Positions 2,590 through 54,210 of a stretch of 64,000 bases of DNA are shown here, in pieces. Where the stretch lies: the NCBI RefSeq assembly GCF_018320785.1, contig NC_054878.1, positions 44,759,429 through 44,823,428 of the forward strand. Reading direction: 5' to 3'. The notes below the pieces were generated by a model. The model saw nothing but the letters and a program-made list of their open reading frames with translations, was not told the DNA's origin and did not search any database. Source of the stretch: Cheilinus undulatus. Lineage: Eukaryota; Chordata; Actinopteri; Labriformes; Labridae. Position 1 is the stretch's first letter. Each line of letters starts with the position of its first letter. The position numbers were made by a program, and so were the translations under genes.

Positions 2590-3947
2590 GTGCAGTGTCC
2601 TGATTATTGATAATTAATATTAGGCAGAAAAACAAGTTAACATAAACTCATGGAGAAATGGCAGCAGGCAGGAATGAACCCTCTGAGCCCTCAGCAGACA
2701 TGATTTCAGAAAAATGTGATTATTTCCACTGGGATAGCTAATGATCAACATACTTATAGTAATGCTTGGTTAAATTCAAACCTCTGATTATGCCGGGAGG
2801 GGATATTTCACATTTCTCTTTATCAAAATATGTGAAATAAACAAATGTTCACCAGTATCTAAGTCTCTCCTGATTGAAATGGGGTGTCAAAACGTTACCA
2901 TTCTTAGCTGCTGCTATTCTCAGATATTCAGTCGTGACTTCTTGTTGGATACAGACCTGCTTTTATTGGACGATCAGATTATAACATGAACTTGCCACAG
3001 AGCATACAGGAAATAAGTGAACAGTGCAAAGATAACACAAGGTTCAGATGATTTCTGACTCGTCCAGAGATCTGTCTGTGAGTTTTTAAAGTGAAATGAG
3101 ACATTAAGGAGCAGTGGTGAACATAGACTAACTGATGTGTGTTAAAAGGGACAATAAAACTTGCAATTAATCAGATTTCAAAATTAGTGCACTAATTATG
3201 TTTCTTGATCGATTAGGATTAATGCAAAAATAATAACATAACATAGAGTTTGAATAAAACTGATGATAAAACAGATTAACATGTCTTGCTCATTCACCAC
3301 TGCACAGGTTAAAGTGAACTGTTTCCCTTATTTGACTTCAGTAAAGTTGGCAGCCTTAGCTTTAAATTCTGCAGTAATGTTGGCTGTGAGAAATGTAAAT
3401 ATGCATTCAATCAAAGCAGACATGAGCACGATGAAAATGAAGAATGAAGACCACGGCTGATCCAGTAAAAAGGTCTGAACTCTTTAGTGTGGGTTTTTGT
3501 TCTGCTGATCAAAGCTGGTGAACACACACTCACACGGATACGGTGTGTGGATATGTAGGTCAAGTGTTTAAACTGTGTGTGTGTGTGAAGCTGCACCAGA
3601 GAGATGCTCAGATTTAATTTCATGCACACTGATCCCTTCATTTTTTTCATATCCATGTACATTCATAGCCTCTGAACTTTGGGGTTGCTGTGATAGAAGA
3701 ATTTTGATTTGATTCATATAAAAATGAAGCTTTGAGCTCGCTGCCTGAGTCGGCATCCACAGTTTTCAGTTGGTTGGGCTTAACTCTAACCTTTATCTAG
3801 GGTTTACACTGACGTCTGATGTCAAAGAACTAAAACATAAACTTAAACACAGGAACAAATACTCTTCTTCTTAAAGGGACATTTCAGAGTTTTTGAAGTT
3901 AGGTTGTTTGAGGTACTCTGCAACAGAAGTGCCATGACCCTTTAGAG
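2590..3947. other. No gene or clear repeat seen
   Basis: AT-rich unique-looking DNA with a short GT run near 3570-3590. No open frame here has supportable homology. Confidence 0.5.
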
Positions 3948-5033
3948 CAGTGTTACTCAACCCTGCTCAACCAAAGAGCCAAATTGTTGAAAAATACCTT
4001 TGCAAGAGCCACGATGTAAGTGGTGAGAAGTGGCAAAAACAGCTTGAAGTAGCAATAAAAAAGTAAAGGTGGCAAAAAATGGTCCAAACCTAGAAAAAAA
4101 GTGGCAAAAATATGAGAGAAAATGGGCAAAAATGGTGAAAAAGCAGCCAAGAGTGGCAAAAAGGGCAAAAAGGAAACAAGTGGTATTTAATGGCAAAAGG
4201 TAGCTTAAATAGGCAAAAAATGGGATAAAAGCGTCAAAAAGATGTTGTAAAAATTTGCGAAAAAAATGGAAATAAGTGATATTTAATGGCAAAGGTTAGC
4301 TTATACAGGCAAAACTGAAAAAAGGGGCAAAATGGGATAAAAGTGGCAAAAAGAGGTTGAAAAAATGTGCAAAAAAAATGGAAATAATATTTAAAATAAT
4401 AATAAAATAATATTTAATGGCAAAGGTTAGCTAAAATGGCAAAAATGGGATAAAAGTGGCAAAAAAATGAGGAAAAAGAAGCAAAAAGAAGTTGCAAAAA
4501 TGGCAAAACAGGAAACAAGTGGTATTTAATGGCAAATGGTAGCTTAAATGGGCAAAAATGGTGAAAAGGGGCAAAATGGGATAAAAGTGGCAAAGAGATG
4601 TTGCAAAAATGTCAAAAAAATGGAAGTAAGTTGTATTAAATGGCAAAGGGTAGCTTAAATGGCTAAAAATGGGATAAAAGTGTCAAAAAATGGGGAAAAA
4701 GAAGCAAAGAGAAGTGGAAAAAATGGGCAAAACAAGAGTAAGCAAGTGGTATTTAATGGCAAAGGGCAGTGTGAATGGACAACAATGAGGAGGAAAAGGG
4801 GTGAAAATAGTGAAAAGGGCAAAATTGGGATAAATGTGTGAAAAATGGGATAAACGGGACGATTAAGTTCGACAATTAAAGCCTTCTCTATAAGTCTGGG
4901 TAACAACTGATCACTGTGCTTACTTTCTGAGGTCAAAGTTTCCCTTTTTAAGGTTTTCTGGGGGGAAATATTTCAAATTAAGACACAAAAGAGCCACAAA
5001 TAATCACAAAGAGCCACATGTTGAGTATCACTG
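3948..5033. mobile_element. hAT-like non-autonomous element filled with GTGGCAAAAA repeats
   Basis: Left end CAGTGTTACTCAAC, right end the reverse complement of CAGTGATACTCAAC. The flanks CTTTAGAG (3940-3947) and CTTCAGAG (5034-5041) form an 8-base target duplication with one mismatch, the hAT hallmark. The interior is a degenerate tandem array (TTTAATGGCAAAGGTAGC..., TGGGATAAAAGTGGCAAAAA) without transposase. AGAGCC motifs lie just inside both ends. Confidence 0.85.
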
Positions 5034-18189: not shown

Positions 18190-18775
18190 AGAGTGGAGAT
18201 TAAAGGTGCTGCAGCCTTTTTGACCCTGACTGCAGAAACACGAAAGCTTCTCTGGTCGTTTCACATTACGCATAAAGATTCCTTCCCCTGGTTGTTCCAC
18301 CCTCAGCTTGGAGGATTTCTGGTCTACTCTCCGTCACACTACCACCACCATGATTGGCTGTGAGCAGGGCCTGAAATTCACCTTTAGGACTGGGAGGAAA
18401 TCTCACAGCACAGAGCAGCCATCTTCCCAGAGTGCTTGACACTCCCCTCTTTACCGAACAATCACACGTGACAGGCTTAGACATGGTTGACCACCAATAG
18501 TAAAATCCGCCACTAAGAAGGCTGACGTCGCAATATTTCCCTAGACAACTTTGTGTAGAAAAGCCTCTATTTCCAATTCCCCTTTAAGGCTGAAGAAGTC
18601 AGACAGGTTTTAAAAATGTTTACAGGTGAGGCTAAAGGCTCACACCAGGGGACAGATGTTGATCTGTGCCAGGACTAACGATGACCTTCAGAGGTCAGAG
18701 GAGCCTCATTTAAGGGTCAATCTCATCGTCAAAGAGTGGGGAGACTTACCTGTCTTTCTGACTTCACAACACAAT
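18190..18775. other. Region upstream of the lectin-like gene, no gene seen
   Basis: Unique-looking DNA. No open frame with recognisable product. Confidence 0.45.
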
Positions 18776-18778
18776 CCA

Positions 18779-19695
18779 TCATGAGTCTGGTTCTGATCCA
18801 GGTTCCATCATGAGTCTGGTTCTGCTCCAGGTTCCATCATGAGTCTGGTTCTGATCCAGGTTCCATCATGAGTCTGGTTCTGCTCCAGGTTCCATCATGA
18901 GTCTGGTTCTGATCCAGGTTCCATCATGAGTCTGGTTCTGATCCAGGTTCCATCATGAGTCTGGTTCTGCTCCAGGTTCCATCATTAGTCTGGTTCTGCT
19001 CCAGGTTCCATCATGAGCCTGGTTCTGATCCAGGTTCCATCATGAGTCTGGTTCTGATCCAGGTTCCATCATGAGTCTGGTTCTGATCCAGGTTCCATCA
19101 TGAGTCTGGTTCTGCTCCAGGTTCCATCATGAGTCTGGTTCTGCTCCAGGTTCCATCATGAGTCTGGTTCTGATCCAGGTTTCATCATGAGTCTGGTTCT
19201 GCTCCAGGTTCCATCATGAGTCTGGTTCTGATCCAGGTTCCATCATTAGTCTGGTTCTGCTCCAGGTTCCATCATGAGTCTGGTTCTGCTCCAGGTTCTA
19301 TCATGAGTCTGGTTCTGCTCCAGGTTTCATCATGAGTCTGGTTCTGCTCCAGTTTCTATCATGAGTCTGGTTCTGATCCAGGTTCCATCATGAGTCTGGT
19401 TCTGCTCCAGGTTCCATCATGAGTCTGGTTCCGATCCAGGTTTCATCATGAGTCTGGTTCCGATCCAGGTTTCATCATGAGTCTGGTTCCGATCCAGGTT
19501 TCATCATGAGTCTGGTTCCGATCCAGGTTTCATCATGAGTCTGGTTCTGATCCAGGTTCCATCATGAGTCTGGTTCTGATCCAGGTTCCATCATGAGTCT
19601 GGTTCTGATCCAGGTTTCATCATGAGTCTGGTTCTGTTCCAGGTTCCATCATGAGTCTGGTTCTGATCCAGGTTCCATCATGAGTCTGGTTCTGC
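18779..19695. repeat. 29-bp minisatellite, about 31 copies
   Basis: The unit is CATCATGAGTCTGGTTCTG followed by ATCCAGGTTC. Copies differ mainly at one A/C position (GATCC or GCTCC) and one C/T position (GTTCC or GTTTC). Four identical CCGATCC/GTTTC units at 19430-19545 show recent local spread. Confidence 0.97.
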
Positions 19696-40900: not shown

Positions 40901-43900
40901 CTAATTTTGTGGCTTCTTGCATTCAAGTTGTGGCTACGCTAATTTTTTGTTTTTTTGTGCTCATGTTGTGGCAGTTGGCATGTTTTGACTTTGTACCTTC
41001 ATGTTGTAGCTGTTTGCGCTATTTTTTTTTTGGCTTTTTGCACTCGTGTTGTGGCATATTTCCCCCATGTCAGTACTATTCAAGCAAAATCAGTTTCTTC
41101 TTCCACTGTTGTAGTATTTTGCCTGTATGTTGTGGCTGTTTGCACTCAGGCTGTGGCTTCTTCCGCTCTAATGTAGCTTCTTGCACTAGTATTGTCTCCT
41201 TTTGCACACATGCTGTTGCTTTTTGCCTCGATGTGACTTTTTGCATCATGTCAGTGGTATTTATACATAATTTGCTGCTTTTCGCAAGAAGAAGAGAGAG
41301 ATAAAGACGAAGAGAGTCCCAGTTGTGTACAGCTGTTGTTGTAGCTGTTTGTGTAGTGGTTGCATAGTGTTGTATCGTCTCACCGTGTCGAGCATCTGCA
41401 GCACTTTGTCCTGTTCACAGGAGTCCAGACCGTCAATGACCACCGCCAGCCTTGTCTGATGCTGCGTGAAGCTATCAATTGTCTTCGCCATCCTCGCCAT
41501 CAGCTCCACCTCGTTCTTCAGCACCTGAGGGGTGACATCATCACATTGAGCTGTACCTACTGCCTTCAAAATAAGAGCCCCCTGCTGGTTTAGTCGGAGG
41601 ATTCAGTGGTACTGATTTCATTCTTTAATGTCAGTCAAAGGTGGTTTGATGGTTTCTACAATGAAAACGAGACAATGACAAGCTAAAAACACATAATTAA
41701 GGCAGTCAGGACGATATAACCACCAACAAAAGCTGTAAAACATTTCATCTTCATATCTCACCTTCATGAAGCCCTCGCTCTTCAGCTTGTTCATCCTGTT
41801 GGCGGCGCTGTGGAGCCTCTTCCTCTGCGAGTTCAGCACAGAGTCGGTCACCTGCCACCAGGTCCTTACATTCAGCAGCAGGGCCAGGCCCACCACGCTG
41901 CCGATGGCGATCAGCACGGCGTTTACCGTGCGGTTATCCCCGTCCACCTTAAAGACGGCAAGCAGCGCCATGCCGGTGAGCAGGCAGGAGAGTACGAAGA
42001 CAAAGAGTATGAATGATGGGACGCAGCACGTCTTCTTCCACTTCTTCTTTCCTGAGGACAGAGGCGGAGCTCAGTGAGTGATTGTTCACCTGTGTGTTTT
42101 TATAGTGTGTATTTGTGTGAGTGTGTTACCCTGCGTCTCCTCCGTCTTGAACACTCTGAACAGACGCGTGGCGAGGAAGCCAAACTCTCTCTCGCAGGCG
42201 TCAGAGAGAGTGGCGATCATCTCAGCCATTGACGTCTCTCCTCCTACGCTTGATAGCCTGTTGTAGTCGGTGAAGAGGAACCTGCAGGGATGCACGATGA
42301 CATCATCAGCGTATGTGCGATTTTAACCTTTAACCTCGTCAACCTGAATCCGTCCTTGCAGGTGACGCTGTTACCTGACAGGAAGTGCTCGGGTGCTCTG
42401 CTCTGGCAGCTCAGGCGGGTTTACAAACATCAGCTTCAGCAGCAGCTCCAGGTACCCGATGTGACGTGCTAAACGAGTGCTGATAAGCCACGCCCAGTTC
42501 CAGCTCTCACCCTCACGGCGCCCACCAAAGTACACCACCACTGAGCGGGGGAGAAAACTTTATTTAAACAACTGAAAAGGGAAAAGGATCCAACTTTATT
42601 CATTCAAAAAAGAGAGAACCAGTTGGTTTCTCACCAAAGAAGAGGTAAAGCAGAGCGAGCAGGCTGAGCGACACAGCCATGGCGAGCTTTGGGTCGACGG
42701 TGAAGCCGAGGACGACGGCGACAGAGCCACAGAGCAGCAGAGACAGAAAGACCACGAGCCAGGAGAACTGAAACAACGGCTCGATCTGCTGCCCAGCAAA
42801 TGTCTTCATCTCATCTGAGGAAATGGAGAAGGTGAGTTAGTGTGTAACGTTTGTGTGCGTCACAGTGTAAGCATCATCACGGTTCAACTCTGAAAGGATT
42901 TTAGTCCAAATTAAAGATACTGGTATCTGATAAAAACAGAAGTCCTGGGCCTCATTTACCAACATCTTCCAATATATGTTGTAAAACCTGACATTTTGAA
43001 ATCATTTGTACCTGCTCAAGCATGGATACCTGTGTGTGGAGATAGGTTTATTTTATTTTTTGTTTTTTATTTTTTTAAGATTTATTTTTGGGCATTTTTG
43101 TGCCTTTATTAGATGGAGGAGGACAGTGGATAGAGTCAGAAACAGGGTCAAGAGTGGGGGTGAGACATGCGGTGAAGGACCTCAGGCAAGATTCGAACCC
43201 GGGCCGCCTGCGTAGACGGGGAGTGCCTTTAACCACTAGGCCACCTGCTCCCCTGGAGATAGGCTTTTATTTTGAAAAAACTTGGTTTAAGTTGATGAAA
43301 ATGCAGTAAAATATAATTAAAATTACATTTCATTGTGTAGGCTTTGTTTCTTGGGGAAGTGGTTCCTTTAAATCTTTTTAAAAGCAGGTTGAAGATATTG
43401 GAGGAAGATCAATCAGGCTGTAGATGTTTGACTGATGACTTTCTGCTCCGTGACTCAAGAGTTGATCTGTGTTAAAAATGTATTTCTGTTTCGTCTGTAA
43501 CTCTGTTAAATGTGCTGCTGCCTGTTCCAGCCTAACGAACTTACTTAATATAATTTTTTTTTTTTCTAAGCATCCTCACTCTTTGACAATTTAAAATAAT
43601 AGATAAAATGTGATATCAGAAAAGTGCTGTCACATATCTGAAATGATCACAACCCTTGTGTTTGTGACTCACCCTCCAGCTTTTTGAGCAGGAAGGACTT
43701 CCCGCTGCCCCACTGAGCATACAGACCCACACAGATAGGCGGCTGCATGGTGGGCTCGCTGAGGATGTCGGCGAGGGCAGAGCTGTACAGATCATACCCC
43801 AGCATGTCCCCGTCTGTCTCTGTGGGGGATAGATGACCTGCAGGACACACAGCTGAGAGTTAGTCTGATTTTGCTTTGTCTATGTGTGTATTTCTTTGTG

Positions 43901-46900: not shown

Positions 46901-49900
46901 TGGCGTTTCCTTTTTCTACGGCCCAGTACAGCGCAGTTTTACTCTCCTGGGACACAAAGACATGAAAACGTCACAACACTGGCACCAACTGTCCACATTA
47001 AAGCTGGCAAACCTTTTCTGATGATTCACTGACTGTGTCATGGGAGAGACAGAGAAAAACACATGTTTAAGCTGTTCAATTCTTAGTGTTGAGATGTTTT
47101 CATTGTGAAAAAAACTGTTTTGTAGTATTAATTTAAAAACAGTGTTAAAAAACAAATAAGGGGTAAACCAACCCTTGAACTTTGTTTTATTTTTCTAAAA
47201 TCATTTTTTTTTTTTTTTAATTAGGCCTTTTTTAAGAGTTGTCAGGTAGCCTATTCTATATTTAAACAACTTAAAGCTGATTTAACTCACAAAACAAAAT
47301 AATTTACTATTATTGTGTTTTATTATAATTGTAGAATTATCCCCAGTCCATAAAATATTGATGTTTCAGTGTTTTTTTATGAACTAGACTGAAGTATTTT
47401 ACCAGTTAGGTTAAATTATAACCCTTTGTCAAACTGGACCTCTGAGAGTTATGATTTTAAACATGCGGTATAAAAAAAATTAATAAATCAGGTTTTTAAA
47501 AATTGACAATGCAATGCAAAGTACAGTAATATAGTTTGGTGGTACAGTTTCACAATCTCTAATATTTATAATTATCTCAGTTTTCCTGCTGTCGTCTTTT
47601 GATGTAAACATGAATTATTTTGAAGAGATGTAAAATAAAATTCCTGACCATGCACCGTCCAACTATTACTGTCCTAAGCTCTTTTTACCCTCCAGGCCCT
47701 TTGCATCACTCACATGACTGAAAGCTATAAATATTTATAAAACCAAAACATTATGACAGCCTAAAGTCCTACCTTATTAAAGATTGCAAGTTTATAATGT
47801 AAGGACTATTTTTACTGATAATAGCACCTTTTTGTGGACAGAAATAAAATAAAGTTTTAAAATGTGCATGAATACCTTATTTTAAGTTTCACAACCCTTG
47901 TTGTCCTGAACATCCTCACGCGCTCTCACCTGTCCTCTGATGTCGATGTCGGCGTATTTATGAAGCAAAGCTCTGACGATCTCCACGTGACCCCCCCTCA
48001 CTGCTCCGATCAGCACCGTATCCCCGCTCTGCAACACAAACAGACCCAAATATGAGGTTACTCTACATAATTATTAAGGAGTGGTAACACCAAGTTAACA
48101 TAATAAAAAAAAAAATAAAAAAAAGTAAAACATGGAGGCAGGTACATTTCAAAAAGCAACAACATTCATGTACACCAGTGGAGAGATTCTCCAAATTCAA
48201 GGCTTTAATTGGACTCCAAACTAACACATCTCTGAAGTTGTGCAGACAGAATGAAAAAACACTTAGAGAAATCATTTCATCTCACCCGGTCTGGGATGTT
48301 GACGTACGTCCCAGCGTCCAGCAGGTCCTGGACGATCTCGGTGTAGCCCTCCTTGGCGGCGATCATGAGCGCAGTGTTTCCGTCTTTGTCGGTCATGTTG
48401 ACGTTCGGGTTCCTCTTTAGCAGCTCCTTCACCACCTCAGTGTAGCCGCCACGCACCGCCACAATCAGAGCTGTCATCGAGTTCTGCACAGAGAAATATG
48501 CAGATTAATTTCAGAGGGATGCCTGATTCTTCATAAATGAAGAGGATTTTCTGTATTAATTATTTTTGTTTATTGTGTTAAAACGAGATAAAAGTGATGG
48601 ATAGGACCTTTACTGCAATAAAGAACAATACTGTGTTAATACTACAGTATTAATGGCAGCGATAGCACATTAAAGGCCAGCAGTGTTTTCTTAGTAATGG
48701 CTGTATATCATCACTGTAAGTCCATTACCGCCCCCTCCTGGTCGACATCGGCTCCATTCTCCAGCAGGTGCATCACACAGTCGAAGTGTCCCTTCCTGGC
48801 GGCCCAGATCAGCGGGGTGGTCCCATACTGTCATAAACATACACATGGAAATATTCACAACATGCACTTATGTAGTAACAGTTTATTTCTTTTTATTGGC
48901 ACTGTAGCAGCAGAAAGTCTCCCTGAGGTCTGCAGGAATAAATCTGAGAACTGTGTTTGTGTCTTAAAACCTTTCACAACATTGCTGCTGTTTAGTTTGT
49001 GTTGGATTGTATTGATCTGTTTCATACTTTTATGTTGTTTTCAATGCTCTGACTGTAATTCTTGTTCTGTTTTGCTGTTTAGTACATATTTGTTTTGTTT
49101 TGGTGTAGCAGTGCCTCACCTTGTCAGAACAGTTGACTTTGGCTCCGTTCTGCAGGAGTATTTTCACGATGTCGGCGTGTCCTCGACCCGCAGCCCAGAT
49201 GATCGGATACACGCTGTACTGCTGCAGACGCACAGAAGAGGCACAAACAGGCAGCAGATGTGAGTAAAACAAGATCCAAGACTTAGGATCCAAGATATTT
49301 GGCATCAGTGAGCTGCACTGAGTCGTATTTTGGGTGGAGCTTTAAGTTGTGATGATAATGACATTTGATTCTTTATCTTTACCTGCAGATTTCACATAGT
49401 CTGTGTCAAAAGTGTTTCATTCATGATGCAGTTTTGCTCTGATTAATGACAGCCTCACCCACCAGGGACTTTACTGAAGCGTAGTAGATCTGGTTCTCTA
49501 GCTCATGGTCTACTACTTTTCTCTGGAGCTCAGAAATACCTTCTCATACAACCACAGAGGAATGGACTCCTTACTATTGACGTCATGTTGGACTAATGGG
49601 CTGTTTAGGGACTACAGTGGTTTTTTTTTTCTATTTTGTTGTATTTTGTGTATTATGTCTACTTTTTACATTTTGTCTGGCCCCCTTCCAAACGCATCTG
49701 AAAGCTGATATGGGATGTCCTTTTCATATCTCTGTTCATGTTTTACCAGATTTTTTTTGTATTTTGATGAACAAAATAAAATAGATCAAATCATAAAAAT
49801 GTTAGAACAGTCCAGTAGTGTTGGGATTCAGGCATTAGTGTGTTACCTGTCCTTTAGTGTTGGGGTTCAGGCATTAGTGTGTTACCTGTCCTTTAGTGTG

Positions 49901-52179
49901 GGGGTTCAGGCATTAGTGTGTTACCTGTCCTTTAGTGTTGGGGTTCAGGCATTAGTGTGTTACCTGTCCTTTAGTGTTGGGGTTCAGGCATTAGTGTGTT
50001 ACCTGTCCTTTAGTGTTGGGGTTCAGGCATTAGTGTGTTACCTGTCCTTTAGTGTCGGGGTTCAGGCATTAGTGTGTTACCTGTCCTTTAGTGTCGGGGT
50101 TCAGGCATTAGTGTGTTACCTGTCCTTTAGTGTGGGGGTTCAGGCATCAGTGTGTTACCTGTCCTTTAGTGTGGGGGTTCAGGCATTAGTGTGTTACCTG
50201 TCCTTTAGTGTCGGGGTTCAGGCATTAGTGTGTTACCTGTCCTTTAGTGTCGGGGTTCAGGCATTAGTGTGTTACCTGTCCTTTAGTGTCGGGGTTCAGG
50301 CATTAGTGTGTTACCTGTCCTTTAGTGTTGGGGTTCAGGCATTAGTGTGTTACCTGTCCTTTAGTGTTTGGGTTCAGGCATTAGTGTGTTACCTGTCCTT
50401 TAGTGTGGGGGTTTGGGCATTAGTGTGTTACCTGTCCTGTAGTGTTGGGGTTCGGGCATTAGTGTGTTACCTGTCCGGTAGTGTTGGGGTTGGCTCCGTG
50501 CTCCAGCAGCAGATTGGTGACATCCACACGTCCTTTGTAAGCGGCCCACATCAGAGCCGTCCAGCCGCCCTGTAAACATGTAAAATAAATGTCATTACAA
50601 GACGTAGCCAAATAAACTGGATCCTAACATAAATGAGGATGACAAAAGCAGAGGGGAAAAAAAATGTTGCACTGAGAAACAATGAAGAGGAGGGATGAAG
50701 AACATGTGATGAAAACTAAAACAAACTTTTTAAAATACTTTTACAACAGTTATGGTATTATTAAGTACTCTTGTTTAAACTCGACAGCTGGGATAGGCTC
50801 CACCCCCCTTGAACCTCAATTGGAAGAAGTGGTGTAGGAAATGGATGGGTGTTTATACTCAGTATCCATGAGCACCCAAATGTAAGTACTTGTATTTCTA
50901 CTTGGTCTGGAAAAATGCAGTATCGGGCATCCCTACATAGGTTTTTTCTAACATGCTCAAAAGCATGGTTTGAGTCTGTGCCAGAAGTTAAGAGAGGAAC
51001 CAGAGTTCAGCCCATGCAGTGCATGTGCACTTGTTTTATTTCAGCAGAGTATCAGCGTCTTTTATTCATTTCACTGTCCTGAGTAATGTCTGCTTGTGTG
51101 AAGGTGTGGTTTTGCCTATTATCAGTAGAAGTTTTTCACTTTGGTTTTTTACTTTGTTTAAAACTCTGTCTTTCCTCTTTACTGCCATTAATTCTAGGAG
51201 CATTACACAGAAAGGTGCGGAGCCAAAGAACCCTTCTAAACACTGGTCACTCTCACCATGTCTCTGTGCTCGATGTAGGCGCTGTTTTCCAGCAGCTCCT
51301 TCACCACATCCTCATGACCTTCCTTCGCTGCAGAGATCAATGCCGACCAGCAGTCCTGAACAGAGAGAGAGAGAGGCGGTTACCATGGGAACAAGCTTCA
51401 CAGAGAAGACTCATTTGTCTGTCTCCCAGCAACTCAGGTCAGATGGAGGTGTGTGTGTGTGTGGAGGCAGAATATGATTATTTTTTTCTGGGTCAGAAAA
51501 GAGAAGCCCAGTGGTGTGTTTGATTTTCTCACCACATCATCCAGGTTGACGTTAGCTCCTCTCCTGATCAGCTCCTGGACGATCTCCAGACTGCCCTGTT
51601 CAGCCGCCAGCATGAGGGGTGTCTGACCATTCTGTCAACACATAAACAAAAAAAAAACCAACAAAAAAACAAGTCAGACAGCAGTAACGGGAAACCTGGA
51701 CATTTATTCTAACAAAATGTTAGAGGTTGTTGCTATGTTAAAACTTTTTTGACACCAAATTCAGAGTAATTAACAAAAGGCATTACATTACCAGCAAACA
51801 GACTTGATGGTAATGCAAATATAATAGCACCTAAACATCAGTAGTATCAATTTATTTGGTATAAAAATATATATTGAATAAAAGTTTAAAAAAGGTAAAA
51901 GAAAATGTTTATATTTGAAGTAAAGAAGAACGCTGTGATTGATAATTCAAGATAAAAACTCCTTTGAACTTAACCATTAGAGTAACAGACATGTTATCAG
52001 GTCAGTTAGATCACTATCAGTGTGGTAATAAGAATAAAGTCACGTACGTCACTGCGTCCGTCCACCTCCTTGAAGCGGTCCAGGTGAGCTTTAAGGGCGG
52101 AGAGGTTTTCCTCTTCCACGTAGCTGAACAGGTTCTGGATGGCCAGAGTGGTCATCTTGATGGACGTGGTGGTGTCCAT
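24765..52179 (-). CDS. kidins220: Kinase D-interacting substrate of 220 kDa (kidins220/ARMS), whole coding region, 28 coding exons
   Basis: Membrane scaffold that links neurotrophin and other receptors to MAPK signalling (family knowledge). I joined 28 coding exons with GT-AG borders: 52179-52048, 51631-51533, 51355-51257, 50569-50471, 49218-49120, 48827-48729, 48483-48286, 48028-47930, 46946-46848, 46759-46661, 44186-44009, 43837-43673, 42814-42635, 42540-42375, 42281-42130, 42051-41762, 41524-41384, 39968-39731, 38554-38466, 37977-37833, 36770-36608, 36495-36317, 34334-34099, 32120-32001, 27592-27455, 27378-27280, 26916-26686, 25973-24765. The lengths sum to 5241 bases, so 1746 residues plus stop; human has about 1771. 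Predicted domains: ankyrin repeats about 1-405, P-loop NTPase about 450-960 with four membrane helices, proline-rich part about 1075-1150, SAM-like domain about 1200-1270, serine-rich tail ending ERESIL (PDZ ligand). No frame break or missing motif was seen. Teleosts often keep two paralogues; a or b cannot be decided here. Confidence 0.96.
26389..26676. mobile_element. MITE with about 80-bp inverted repeats next to the exon 27 donor
   Basis: Left ACAATTCCAAAAAAGTTGGG and right (reverse) ACCAGTTCCAAAAACATTGG continue in parallel to AAATCTCATAAACC on both sides. About 288 bases, no coding capacity. Confidence 0.85.
26686..26916 (-). CDS. kidins220: kidins220 coding exon 27
   Basis: 231 bases from [16 protein letters not shown] to GNMQWM, including the conserved [16 protein letters not shown] palindromic MITE lies only about nine bases beyond its donor. 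Confidence 0.92.
27030..27232. mobile_element. Small palindromic repeat element in intron 26
   Basis: Contains the perfect palindrome GTCCTCATATGAGGAC near the left and TGATGTCCTCATTTGAGGA near the right, with AATGAGGACAC at the end. It resembles a MITE-like fish repeat; borders approximate. Confidence 0.5.
27280..27378 (-). CDS. kidins220: kidins220 coding exon 26, SAM-like domain
   Basis: 99 bases. [20 protein letters not shown] and [11 protein letters not shown] are almost identical to human. Only 76 bases of intron separate it from exon 25. Confidence 0.94.
27455..27592 (-). CDS. kidins220: kidins220 coding exon 25, start of SAM-like domain
   Basis: 138 bases. [20 protein letters not shown] matches human AVCEKLKQIEGLDQSMLPQY. 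Confidence 0.93.
27660..29084. other. Intron 24 portion, no feature supported
   Basis: No missing kidins220 exon was found here. 28690-28790 has GATTATGATCATGATTAT-type sequence that may be an old transposon end. Confidence 0.4.
29085..29641. mobile_element. Complete copy of a TAACCTG/TAACCTTGC-ended DNA transposon
   Basis: Left TAACCTGAAACGCCAGATGG, right (reverse) TAACCTTGCAATGCAGATGG. The flanks AGCGGTGC and AGTGGTGC are an 8-base duplication with one mismatch, consistent with hAT. About 557 bases, no transposase. Relatives at 12886-13120 and 62424-62899. Confidence 0.8.
30640..31555. repeat. Polypurine (GAA/GGA-rich) tract of about 0.9 kb in intron 24
   Basis: The plus strand is nearly all A and G (GAAGAAGAAGA, GGAGGAAGAA); the kidins220 transcript therefore carries a long pyrimidine tract. 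Frames rich in E/K or L/F/S are by-products. Confidence 0.9.
32001..32120 (-). CDS. kidins220: kidins220 coding exon 24
   Basis: 120 bases, 40 codons from [19 protein letters not shown] to [10 protein letters not shown], borders CAG|CCATAT and CCC|GTGAGT. It matches the human segment after YNR only loosely. The human linker of roughly 35 residues that follows was not found in the next intron. Confidence 0.8.
32265..32575 (+). pseudogene. LINE reverse transcriptase fragment in intron 23
   Basis: The plus-strand frame reads [20 protein letters not shown], then [20 protein letters not shown], the palm region of a non-LTR reverse transcriptase. The YADD active site has become YAND and both sides are truncated, so it is dead. 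Clade not assigned. Confidence 0.85.
32630..32960. other. Possible piggyBac-like left end
   Basis: TTAACCCCTTAAAGCCTGTT at 32632 resembles a TTAA-flanked transposon start; no right end was identified. Confidence 0.35.
32985..33846. mobile_element. GTGGCAAAAA-family element with hAT-like right end
   Basis: Inverted-type repeats (TTTTTGCCACTTTT) run to 33560, followed by the segment shared with 17120-17232 and the end GGTTGAGAGCCACTG (33832-33846), a hAT-type terminus. The left end is not clear. A run of 15 or more G lies at 33779-33793. Confidence 0.7.
34099..34334 (-). CDS. kidins220: kidins220 coding exon 23, proline-rich region
   Basis: 236 bases. After DVRAAREQ it encodes the proline-rich stretch [20 protein letters not shown] and ends [20 protein letters not shown] ... 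YNR, as in human. This part is known to contact SH3 adaptors in the mammalian protein. Confidence 0.93.
34758..35060. mobile_element. Tc1-derived MITE in intron 22
   Basis: Left TATAAATCAATCATGGTCAA and right (reverse) AATTAATCATGGTCAATATA, the same ends as the Tc1 copy at 60825-61930, with the transposase deleted. Confidence 0.75.
35214..35934. mobile_element. hAT-like element with an internal 30-bp array, intron 22
   Basis: Left CAGGGGTGTCAAACT, right (reverse) CAGGGATGTCAAACT. Flanks CTTTATAA and CATTATAA are an 8-base target duplication with one mismatch. The interior repeats CATATTTTGACTTTTAATCT-like units. Confidence 0.88.
36317..36495 (-). CDS. kidins220: kidins220 coding exon 22
   Basis: 179 bases. 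[20 protein letters not shown] and [18 protein letters not shown] match human. Its donor (GCGG|GTAAAT) and the last exon bases resemble the unit of the tandem array in the next intron. Confidence 0.94.
36608..36770 (-). CDS. kidins220: kidins220 coding exon 21
   Basis: 163 bases. [20 protein letters not shown] and the segment to LKTIYE match human, phase 2 at the donor. Confidence 0.94.
36951..37440. repeat. Dispersed repeat copy A in intron 20
   Basis: Shares CTGTAAAGTGAT, CATCTCTAAGTTTATAAA, ATCTGCTC.AGGATGGTG and CTGACCTTACA-type blocks with copy B at 38915-39305, same orientation. Family not known to me. Confidence 0.7.
37833..37977 (-). CDS. kidins220: kidins220 coding exon 20
   Basis: 145 bases. 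[20 protein letters not shown] and the following segment to NIVSVT are nearly identical to human. Confidence 0.94.
38150..38401. mobile_element. Fragment of the CAGGGGCG-ended transposon, intron 19
   Basis: Right end (reverse) CAGGGGCGTTGTTAGGGTT. The body matches the element at 60169-60616 in the opposite orientation (AATGTTGCAT, GAGCAATATTTTTA, CCATTTGGACATTTTTA). The left end is missing. Confidence 0.75.
38466..38554 (-). CDS. kidins220: kidins220 coding exon 19
   Basis: 89 bases. It encodes [19 protein letters not shown], matching human SQNSLGEMTKLGSKTALNRR. The acceptor is a NAGNAG tandem (TAGCAG), so the 5' edge may be 38554 or 38557. Confidence 0.88.
38915..39305. repeat. Dispersed repeat copy B in intron 18
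   Basis: Diverged counterpart of 36951-37440, same orientation. Confidence 0.7.
39310..39725. mobile_element. hAT-like left end with GTGGCAAAAA array, abutting exon 18
   Basis: CAGTGTTACTCAACCAAAGG and CCTTTGCAAGAGCCACAAT match the left end of the element at 3948-5033. The array continues to within a few bases of the exon 18 donor at 39730; no right end. Confidence 0.75.
39731..39968 (-). CDS. kidins220: kidins220 coding exon 18, KAP domain
   Basis: 238 bases. [20 protein letters not shown] and [17 protein letters not shown] match human closely. The tail ([13 protein letters not shown]) lies in a variable acidic region. A hAT-like end sits in the intron right after its donor. Confidence 0.93.
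40085..41290. repeat. 21-bp minisatellite in intron 17, more than 50 diverged copies
   Basis: The unit is TGTTGTGGCTTTTTGCACTCA. It fills most of the intron between exons 17 and 18 and creates cysteine/histidine-rich open frames with a 7-residue period on the plus strand. Confidence 0.9.
41384..41524 (-). CDS. kidins220: kidins220 coding exon 17, KAP Walker B
   Basis: 141 bases, phase 0. It holds the Walker B-type segment [15 protein letters not shown] followed by VLQMLDT. Confidence 0.94.
41762..42051 (-). CDS. kidins220: kidins220 coding exon 16, second pair of membrane helices
   Basis: 290 bases. It begins with a lysine-rich patch (KKKWKKTCC) and contains two hydrophobic helices (about [20 protein letters not shown] and [18 protein letters not shown]), then a basic amphipathic stretch ending KSEGFMK. 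Confidence 0.94.
42130..42281 (-). CDS. kidins220: kidins220 coding exon 15, KAP domain
   Basis: 152 bases. [20 protein letters not shown] and the following segment to KTEETQ are nearly identical to human. Phase 1 at the 3' side. Confidence 0.94.
42375..42540 (-). CDS. kidins220: kidins220 coding exon 14, KAP domain
   Basis: 166 bases. It encodes [15 protein letters not shown] and the segment ending [13 protein letters not shown], strongly conserved with human. Confidence 0.94.
42635..42814 (-). CDS. kidins220: kidins220 coding exon 13, first two membrane helices
   Basis: 180 bases. Two hydrophobic segments (about [19 protein letters not shown] and [16 protein letters not shown]) separated by a short loop, the first membrane hairpin inserted in the KAP NTPase. 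Confidence 0.94.
43050..43255 (-). mobile_element. tRNA-derived SINE in kidins220 intron 12
   Basis: Read on the minus strand it starts GGGGAGCAGGTGGCCTAGTG, with an A-box (TGGCCTAGTGG) and a B-box (GGGTTCGAATC), then a tRNA-unrelated body and an AATAAATCTTAAAAAAATAA tail. The tRNA part is altered and not a functional tRNA. Confidence 0.88.
43673..43837 (-). CDS. kidins220: kidins220 coding exon 12, KAP NTPase Walker A
   Basis: 165 bases. It holds the P-loop (AQWGSGKS) after the conserved [19 protein letters not shown] start of the KAP domain. Binding of nucleotide by this loop is family knowledge. Confidence 0.95.
44009..44186 (-). CDS. kidins220: kidins220 coding exon 11, last ankyrin repeat and linker
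   Basis: 178 bases. It starts [20 protein letters not shown] (final ankyrin repeat) and continues into the linker ending SILTQIFGA before the NTPase domain. The donor splits an arginine codon (phase 1). Confidence 0.94.
44190..45200. other. Intron 10 portion, nothing supported
   Basis: No repeat or coding signal recognised. Confidence 0.4.
45204..46062. mobile_element. hAT-like element in intron 10
   Basis: Left TAGGGGTGTAACAGTA, right (reverse) TAGAGGTGTAACGGTA. Flanks GTTAGCAC and GATAGCAC are an 8-base target duplication with one mismatch. 859 bases, no transposase; CGGT-rich subterminal repeats at both sides. Confidence 0.9.
46661..46759 (-). CDS. kidins220: kidins220 coding exon 10, ankyrin repeat
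   Basis: 99 bases, phase 0, core [18 protein letters not shown], as in human. Confidence 0.94.
46848..46946 (-). CDS. kidins220: kidins220 coding exon 9, ankyrin repeat
   Basis: 99 bases, phase 0, core [20 protein letters not shown]. Only 88 bases of intron separate it from exon 10. Confidence 0.94.
47160..47870. other. Intron 8 portion, AT-rich, nothing supported
   Basis: Low-complexity T and A runs only. Confidence 0.4.
47930..48028 (-). CDS. kidins220: kidins220 coding exon 8, ankyrin repeat
   Basis: 99 bases, phase 0, core [18 protein letters not shown], ending DIRGQ|GTGAG. Confidence 0.94.
48286..48483 (-). CDS. kidins220: kidins220 coding exon 7, two ankyrin repeats
   Basis: 198 bases, phase 0: exactly two 33-residue ankyrin repeats fused in one exon ([18 protein letters not shown] and [18 protein letters not shown] cores). 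Very close to human. Confidence 0.94.
48729..48827 (-). CDS. kidins220: kidins220 coding exon 6, ankyrin repeat
   Basis: 99 bases, phase 0, core [18 protein letters not shown], matching the human repeat. The donor is GCG|GTAATG. Confidence 0.93.
49120..49218 (-). CDS. kidins220: kidins220 coding exon 5, ankyrin repeat
   Basis: 99 bases, 33 codons beginning [18 protein letters not shown], almost identical to human. The acceptor is a NAGNAG tandem (CAGCAG); the downstream AG gives the human-like length, the upstream one would add a glutamine. Confidence 0.93.
49808..50490 (-). repeat. 39-bp minisatellite made of copies of the exon 4 splice donor
   Basis: The motif TTACCTGTCC (plus strand) recurs from 49843 to 50467 at exactly 39-base steps, 17 occurrences with no indel. 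The highest-coordinate one is the real exon 4 donor. Each unit carries about 21 bases of exon-like sequence (AACCCCAACACTAAAGGACAG) up to the GT and about 18 bases of intron start. An open frame on the plus strand (13-residue period) is a by-product of this array and not a gene. Confidence 0.95.
50471..50569 (-). CDS. kidins220: kidins220 coding exon 4, ankyrin repeat
   Basis: 99 bases, phase 0, one ankyrin repeat ([17 protein letters not shown] core). Its donor GGACAG|GTAACA is the first of 17 identical-type donors at a 39-base spacing that form the minisatellite in the following intron. Confidence 0.92.
50777..50850 (+). mobile_element. Short fragment of the same (GATG)n-tailed retroposon, in kidins220 intron 3
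   Basis: CAGCTGGGATAGGCTCCACC and GAAATGGATGGGTG correspond to the last 75 bases of the copy at 5178-5463. Confidence 0.7.
51257..51355 (-). CDS. kidins220: kidins220 coding exon 3, ankyrin repeat
   Basis: 99 bases, phase 0, one ankyrin repeat with core [19 protein letters not shown]. The borders are CAG|GACTGC and GACATG|GTGAGA. Confidence 0.92.
51533..51631 (-). CDS. kidins220: kidins220 coding exon 2, ankyrin repeat
   Basis: 99 bases, phase 0, 33 codons beginning [18 protein letters not shown], a canonical ankyrin repeat start. The donor GTGAGA follows a GTG valine codon; the alternative GT one codon earlier would remove that residue. Confidence 0.92.
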
Positions 52180-53677: not shown

Positions 53678-54210
53678 TCAGTAGCGAGTAGAAGAACCAT
53701 ACACAGCCACAACAGCCTGGCTCCTCCTCCTCATGCTGGTCACCAGCCTGGTCACACACTGCTGTGGGATGGCATCCCATTCTTCAACCAGCATTTGTCG
53801 CCAGTCAGCCAGTGTGGTTATGTTGGTCACTCTGGCACAAACAGCTTGCTCAAGCTGATCCCACAGGTGTTCAATGGGGTTAAGGTCAGGACTGCTGGCA
53901 GGACATTCCATCCTCTCCACTCCCAAATTCCGGAGGTAGTCTCTGATAAACCCCGCTCTGTGAAGGCGAGTGTTGTCATCTTGGAGGATAGAGTTCTTGT
54001 TGACAGGGTGAGAAAACAATATTCTCGGGGTGTTGTCTTCTTGGGACGCCCACTTCGCGGCCTGTCTCTGACATTCCCCGTTATATGGAACTTGGCCCTC
54101 AGTGTGGAGATGGTATTAGGGTTCACTCCAACTTGGGCTTGCAGAACACCAGCGTGAAGTTGCCCAACCGACAGGCCCTATCCAGATCAGTCAAACGTAG
54201 CATGCCAATT
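53678..54210 (-). pseudogene. Broken Tc1-like transposase
   Basis: Reading on the minus strand, an N-terminal MLRLTDLDRA start and a helix-turn-helix end (GRPKKTTPRE) lie in frames different from the C-terminal part, which keeps DDNTRLHRA and SPDLNPIEHLWDQLEQ, the second and third acidic positions of the DDE catalytic triad. The first catalytic aspartate region is deleted and at least two frame breaks are present, so no active enzyme can be made. Confidence 0.85.

Follow-up and report, generated by a model that had tools for sequence, protein, structure and literature searches.

The splice donor of kidins220 coding exon 4 in the fish Cheilinus undulatus is the first of 17 identical donors that recur at 39-nt steps into intron 4, within the 64,000-nt stretch of DNA analyzed here (the window). 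We consider it probable that a minisatellite was seeded across the exon-intron boundary and has been tolerated because exon definition favors the donor nearest the acceptor. A segment over the exon 4/intron 4 junction, containing about 21 exon and 18 intron bases, would have been duplicated in tandem, and the duplicated junction would then have expanded within the intron by slippage or unequal exchange; the duplication is read from the anatomy of the array, and its date and mechanism we infer. Donor 1 would be both the ancestral and the working donor. We take the array to be most probably close to neutral, the true donor being picked by its position.

Anatomy of the array at kidins220 exon 4

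The gene lies on the minus strand, as do all of the kidins220 features given below, and its neighboring ankyrin exons follow in order by translation. Exon 4 (50471..50569), a number counted over the coding exons, is a 99-nt, phase 0 ankyrin repeat exon recognized by its translation, its flanking AG/GT, and its match to PDB 9jxq_C, and it is bounded by TTTACAG on the 5′ side and GTAACA on the 3′ side. It is flanked by intron 3 (50570..51256; 687 nt) and intron 4 (49219..50470; 1252 nt), after which comes exon 5 (49120..49218), preceded by a tandem GCAGCAG acceptor. When exons 4 and 5 are joined at donor 1, their 66 amino acids match 66 residues of solved KIDINS220 (9jxq_C, residues 73-138, in the match table), which indicates that donor 1 yields the normal protein. 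At the tandem acceptor (49219-49225), the exon 4/5 junction may vary by one glutamine, and an extra CAG codon is seemingly included in related proteins from a bat (P0002; TGLQHSVYP) and, judging by its frame, from Lates (P0005). Elsewhere in the gene, two more exons with GTAACA donors lie at 42127-42375, one of these donors being followed by GTAACACACTCACACA, which is similar to the exon 4 intron start.

The array comprises 17 units of 39 bp (49832..50494), each made of about 21 exon-like and 18 intron-like bases, with its donor intact and a stop in frame. Its first donor is the true exon 4 donor, CAG/GTAACA (50465..50473, last exon base 50471; the slash marks the exon-intron boundary), and units 2 to 17 (49832..50455) are decoy donor units within intron 4, the last of whose 16 donors lies 628 nt from the intron end. 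We observed 17 exact GGACAG/GTAACA donors at strict 39-nt steps, with last exon-side bases running from 50471 to 49847, and TRF placed the array at 49816-50491 with a period of 39, 17.3 copies, 97% match, and 0% indel. The exact positions and TRF thus agree with the original prediction of an indel-free 39-bp array of 17 donor copies headed by the true exon 4 donor, and the 39-nt units with their exon-like bases likewise bear out its account of a tandemly duplicated exon-end donor that keeps the frame. The 12-mer GGACAG/GTAACA does not occur outside the array on either strand of the window. Being composed of head-to-tail units within the range of about 10 to 100 bp, in many copies and with high identity, the array is a minisatellite.

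Unit columns 19 to 34 (GGACAGGTAACACACT) are invariant in 17 of 17 units, giving donor 1 and its 16 decoys 16 identical bases in common. The decoys had been counted as 16 and described as near-perfect; the count stands, and at the donor they are in fact perfect. The exon-like part changes from AACCCCAACACTACCGGACAG in unit 1 to AACCCCNACACTAAAGGACAG in most other units. Read in frame past the donor, every unit encodes V T H and then a stop, so that the stop foreseen in each unit is present throughout, although what had been given as TAA everywhere is TAA in 16 units and TGA in unit 9. Units 1, 2, 3, and 18 differ from the unit consensus at 5, 2, 3, and 13 bases, respectively, and units 4 to 17 at 0 to 2 bases, mostly at column 10, where A, G, and C form a block pattern. 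The 18th unit (49793..49831, the start being approximate) is degenerate, and a gapped alignment shows its donor destroyed by a 2-nt insertion and substitutions. Edge units that are the most diverged and inner units that stay near the consensus are the usual look of a minisatellite that is turning over. In an RNA fold of the array, the z score was -2.59, 1 of 20 shuffles folded at least as well, and the centroid was empty.

Tandem arrays are error-prone in assemblies, and the copy number could have been inflated or collapsed. We regard such an artifact as very unlikely here, given that the 1.17-Gb assembly is held in 46 contigs, that a search of the genome for the 762-bp region (which passes over very common words) found a single place, the kidins220 locus itself, and that the units can be told apart by their column 10 blocks and by the degenerate end unit.

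Origin of the array and its location

The exon end is protein sequence under constraint. In a search limited to proteins between 0.55 and 1.75 times as long as the query, the exon end NPNTTGQ/V was present in 11 of 11 relatives, including Sinocyclocheilus (P0007), whose open reading frames extend out of exon 4 into intron sequence. No second NPNTTGQ copy was found in the 5 of these 11 that have intron tails of 18 to 43 codons; the tails of the remaining 6 are too short to show one, and relatives P0002, P0005, P0006, P0021, and P0040 do not read into intron 4 and are uninformative there. The tail starts with VT in 5 of the 11, which is compatible with a GTNAC donor like that of exon 4. In the paralogue on contig C18, the exon ends as NPNITGQ/GTACTG, and its 253-nt intron 4 contains no second copy of the exon end (best, 16 of 30 bases). 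From these exon ends, it appears most likely that the donor array is lineage-specific and that unit 1 is the ancestral copy.

Two further ideas were set aside. Intron gain by tandem genomic duplication reportedly proceeds through a within-gene tandem copy with splice-motif involvement. The kidins220 array likewise is a tandem copy within a gene that involves splice motifs, but its copies fall inside an existing intron and create no new one; the same exon end and intron in the paralogue and in the 11 relatives led us to reject this origin. The donor core is unchanged in 17 units although nearby columns vary, and we considered whether this invariance is a sign of selection. The argument is post hoc and concerns few mutations, and we attribute the invariant core to recent amplification, with selection as a possibility.

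How surprising the location is depends on how common such arrays are. The window contains 25 merged tandem arrays with a period of at least 10, which occupy 9% of its bases at one per 2.6 kb. The window also holds a 29-bp minisatellite at 18775-19694 (31.7 copies, 95% match) and minus-strand open reading frames at 53681-54177 that resemble part of what is presumably a Tc1-like transposase. By our own arithmetic, which assumes random array placement, about 0.5 boundary-spanning 39-bp seeds would be expected by chance over the 33 kidins220 boundaries. An ungapped scan of these boundaries, within 400 nt and with some exon edges approximate, was positive at 1 of 33, the exon 4 donor, where 29 of 30 bases are repeated at +39; the other 32 reached 14 to 18 of 30 bases and showed no array. 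As a repeat, the array is plainly beyond chance; as a location, it is less so. The description of the array as unusual therefore holds for its 17 identical donors, which are striking, and is tempered by the 25 arrays in the window and by the other boundary arrays in the genome.

Choice among identical donors

CAG/GTAACA is a usable donor, given that the same 9-mer is the donor of the kidins220 exon ending near 42375. Its predicted pairing with U1 is about -8.0 kcal/mol, versus -11.8 kcal/mol for CAG/GTAAGT. Since all 17 donors are equal, only position and context differ among them: donor 1 yields an exon of 99 nt, which the decoys would lengthen by 39 nt at a time, from 138 up to 723 nt. According to Carranza and colleagues, when donors are close in strength the upstream one is preferred by exon-defined exons and the downstream one by intron-defined exons; their minigenes, in which two identical donors are combined with introns of 365 nt, bear out upstream choice under exon definition, and they cite a switch between the two regimes at about 200 to 250 nt of intron (PMC9225289). 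Those minigenes, like kidins220, place identical donors downstream of one acceptor, with two designed donors there and 17 natural ones here. With flanking introns of 687 and 1252 nt, and 628 nt past the last decoy, all of the donors fall in the exon-definition regime; equal donors beside long introns thus mean that donor 1 is already favored by the published rule, which was tested on two donors rather than 17. The decoys would be expected to bind U1 yet mostly lose, because recognition of exon 4 would proceed by exon definition, and no other donor is as near to its acceptor as donor 1. The original prediction held that the true site must outcompete the decoys; that it needs a special advantage to do so is not supported, as the position rule (PMC9225289) already points to donor 1 with introns of this length. 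Position alone may answer the worry about decoy competition.

The closest known case is human IFI6 (6-16), whose minisatellite was reportedly described by Turri in 1995 as containing several splice donors. In IFI6, two of the downstream repeat units serve as donors, and three mRNAs result (PMC4526556). The kidins220 array, whose units carry donors and whose first donor is the exon's own, belongs to this known kind. It is unlike IFI6 in that its units are 39 bp long with a stop in each, that its 16 decoys have one donor sequence, and that it is known from sequence alone. The use of repeat donors in IFI6 means that decoy use may not be rare in kidins220. Moreover, in about 60% of human alternative-donor events overall, with strength not yet equalized, it is the downstream site that is preferred, and very weak identical donors lead to skipping of the larger exons (both from PMC9225289), so the weak GTAACA donor may behave differently from the donors on which the rule is based; SRSF1, for its part, can move choice to the intron-proximal donor (PMC5585400, in excerpt). 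Taken together, these observations lead us to expect some decoy use. If donor 2 or 3 were used now and then, the mRNA would gain 39 or 78 nt and meet a stop at the fourth of the new codons; such an mRNA would presumably be removed by nonsense-mediated decay.

If the decoys instead took a sizeable, length-dependent share of splicing, copy number would set the loss of kidins220 mRNA to nonsense-mediated decay, and the array would act as a rheostat, an alternative raised in the original prediction. None of the 16 decoys has lost its donor 9-mer, which is the same throughout, each unit has a stop, and the precedent of the used IFI6 donors (PMC4526556, in part) points the same way. We nevertheless consider this reading unlikely and unsupported by our results: the position rule favors donor 1 (PMC9225289), the stop arrives with the copied intron start and is not an added feature, the array is absent from the paralogue and from the 5 informative relatives, and the Kidins220 alternative splicing reported in the relevant part of PMC4470590 lies elsewhere, between exons 24 and 29 and at exon 32/33.

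A bipartite QKI response element combines an ACUAAY core with a UAAY half-site nearby. The array contains 16 ACTAAY and 34 TAAY, with UAAC overlapping each donor, and by its letters it includes such elements; ACTAA occurs 31 times in the 701-nt array, versus at most 13 times in any other 700 nt on the same strand of the window. Together, the U1 sites of the 16 decoys and the 31 ACUAA motifs (QKI/SF1 type) could form a landing platform that aids or regulates exon 4 inclusion while the decoys remain uncut. Excerpts of PMC13004596 state that QKI and SF1 compete for ACUAA, that two ACUAA elements are needed for QKI binding in RAI14, and that UACUAAY in the downstream intron is linked to exon inclusion in muscle, and the predicted U1 pairing of about -8 kcal/mol applies at each site. 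The same excerpts give the opposite UACUAAY pattern in brain (PMC13004596), GTAACA pairs with U1 more weakly than the consensus does, and the ACTAA density is an automatic by-product of copying one intron start; such a platform seems to us decidedly unlikely.

Every CAG/GTAA could also be imagined as both an acceptor and a donor, with the array removed stepwise by recursive splicing and leaving no mRNA trace. Nearly every unit has the CAG/GTAA core and a CTAAT branch-like motif. This reading fails because a polypyrimidine tract is missing before CAG/GT, the 18 nt upstream being 39% pyrimidine; in addition, a 39-nt intron is shorter than the usual vertebrate minimum, and we judge recursive removal exceedingly improbable. 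Choice of donor 1 by position, within a near-neutral array, is the reading that we carry forward.

Boundary arrays elsewhere in the genome

Genome-wide counts of repeated donor motifs point both ways. Three copies of CAGGTRAGT with 10- to 40-nt gaps gave 732 + 1886 matches, versus 214 + 91 for the reversed pattern, and three copies of AGGTRAGT with 25- to 35-nt gaps gave 412 + 881, versus 358 + 167; three copies of AGGTAAGT with 15- to 45-nt gaps gave 34 + 309, versus 665 + 628, and four copies of AGGTAAC gave 16 (14 of which are the kidins220 array), versus 137 + 1. Because of these opposing counts, and because a few long arrays dominate among the matches listed, we claim no general excess of donor arrays. 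We read the matches listed for the CAGGTRAGT and AGGTRAGT patterns from contig C1 to part of C4, a set in which the kidins220 array does not appear because its donor does not fit either pattern. These matches fall into at least 13 separate loci, one of which (C1:35.7M) is not a tandem array, leaving 12. Three of the 12 begin at the donor of an exon (selenos, C1:58.6M; trip12, C2:6.96M; and a gene-family exon, C4:53.416M), one, on the opposite strand, consists of acceptors (galnt7, C4:53.388M), one is a possible boundary case (C2:55.4M, for which Pfam gave no match), and seven have no clear exon by eye (C1:0.28M, C3:54.4M, and C4:0.59M, 1.58M, 1.98M, 12.6M, and 56.28M).

The largest of the exon-donor cases is selenos (Pfam Selenoprotein_S, E 2.2e-11), on the minus strand of C1:58598000-58604000. 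From position 3446 of the reverse complement, one of its exons carries 37 donor positions, mostly 19 to 21 bp apart and one mutated to ATGAGT, in an intron of 1045 nt with 315 nt beyond the last decoy. The next selenos exon, from position 4564, has 5 donors at 38 bp, with a true donor of CAG/GTACGT and copies diverged to CAG/GTCTGT; this second array came from the fetched flank and is outside the count of 12. In trip12 (PDB TRIP12, E 4.4e-21; minus strand, C2:6956500-6957800), an array of 35-bp units in 4.4 copies comes after the exon that ends in SRYWFYLYE and repeats its donor; the donors number four, three GTGAGT and a last GTGGGT. The gene-family exon has 3 donors at 43 bp (71% match); 178 proteins are homologous to it, and of the 120 that were listed, every named one is from a fish. 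A galnt7-like exon (PDB 6iwq_A, E 3.7e-30; minus strand, C4:53385800-53389800) has 7 acceptors at 49-bp steps, of which the last is the true one, and so mirrors the donor array of kidins220. Finally, a minus-strand 14-bp array of consensus donor motifs (AGGTGAGTTAAGAC) fills all 4 kb of one C4 locus and about 5 kb of another, within 56281000-56290500.

Minisatellite expansion at exon-intron boundaries has a further parallel in human segmental-duplication genes, in which internal tandem repeats, averaging 30-bp units and 4 copies, have altered introns (PMC2812944, in part). In the excerpted account, those cases are primate-specific paralogues with transcript evidence, whereas kidins220 is a conserved gene whose array was found in genomic DNA. 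Within the open-licence literature on donor minisatellites and fish exon-boundary repeats, we found nothing closer than the systems compared here.

That several boundary arrays are present in this repeat-rich genome would fit with their being nearly neutral beside long introns. A more far-reaching idea is that the kidins220 array is a copy-number-variable control element, combining U1 sites, QKI/SF1 sites, and stop-bearing decoys, whose allele length tunes kidins220 output. We think this quite unlikely; if it were true, the arrays of selenos, trip12, and galnt7 would form a group of similar elements that could exist only next to long introns, where exon definition shields the true site.

On our preferred reading, of a near-neutral array with its donor chosen by position, a boundary duplication that keeps the original site would place its decoys within the intron, at a greater distance from the site with which the original one pairs across the exon, so that exon definition would shield the true site and intron definition would not. 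Boundary arrays would then be predicted to survive beside long introns and not beside short ones; both of the cases measured, kidins220 and selenos, fit this prediction, a sample of two being too few to test it. The kidins220 array is a natural splicing experiment, in which 17 donors of the same sequence in a conserved gene differ in their distance from the acceptor, and selenos offers 37 donor positions in the same genome for the same question. Counts of junctions along arrays of this kind would show whether, under exon definition, equal donors are chosen on position alone and how steeply preference drops with distance.
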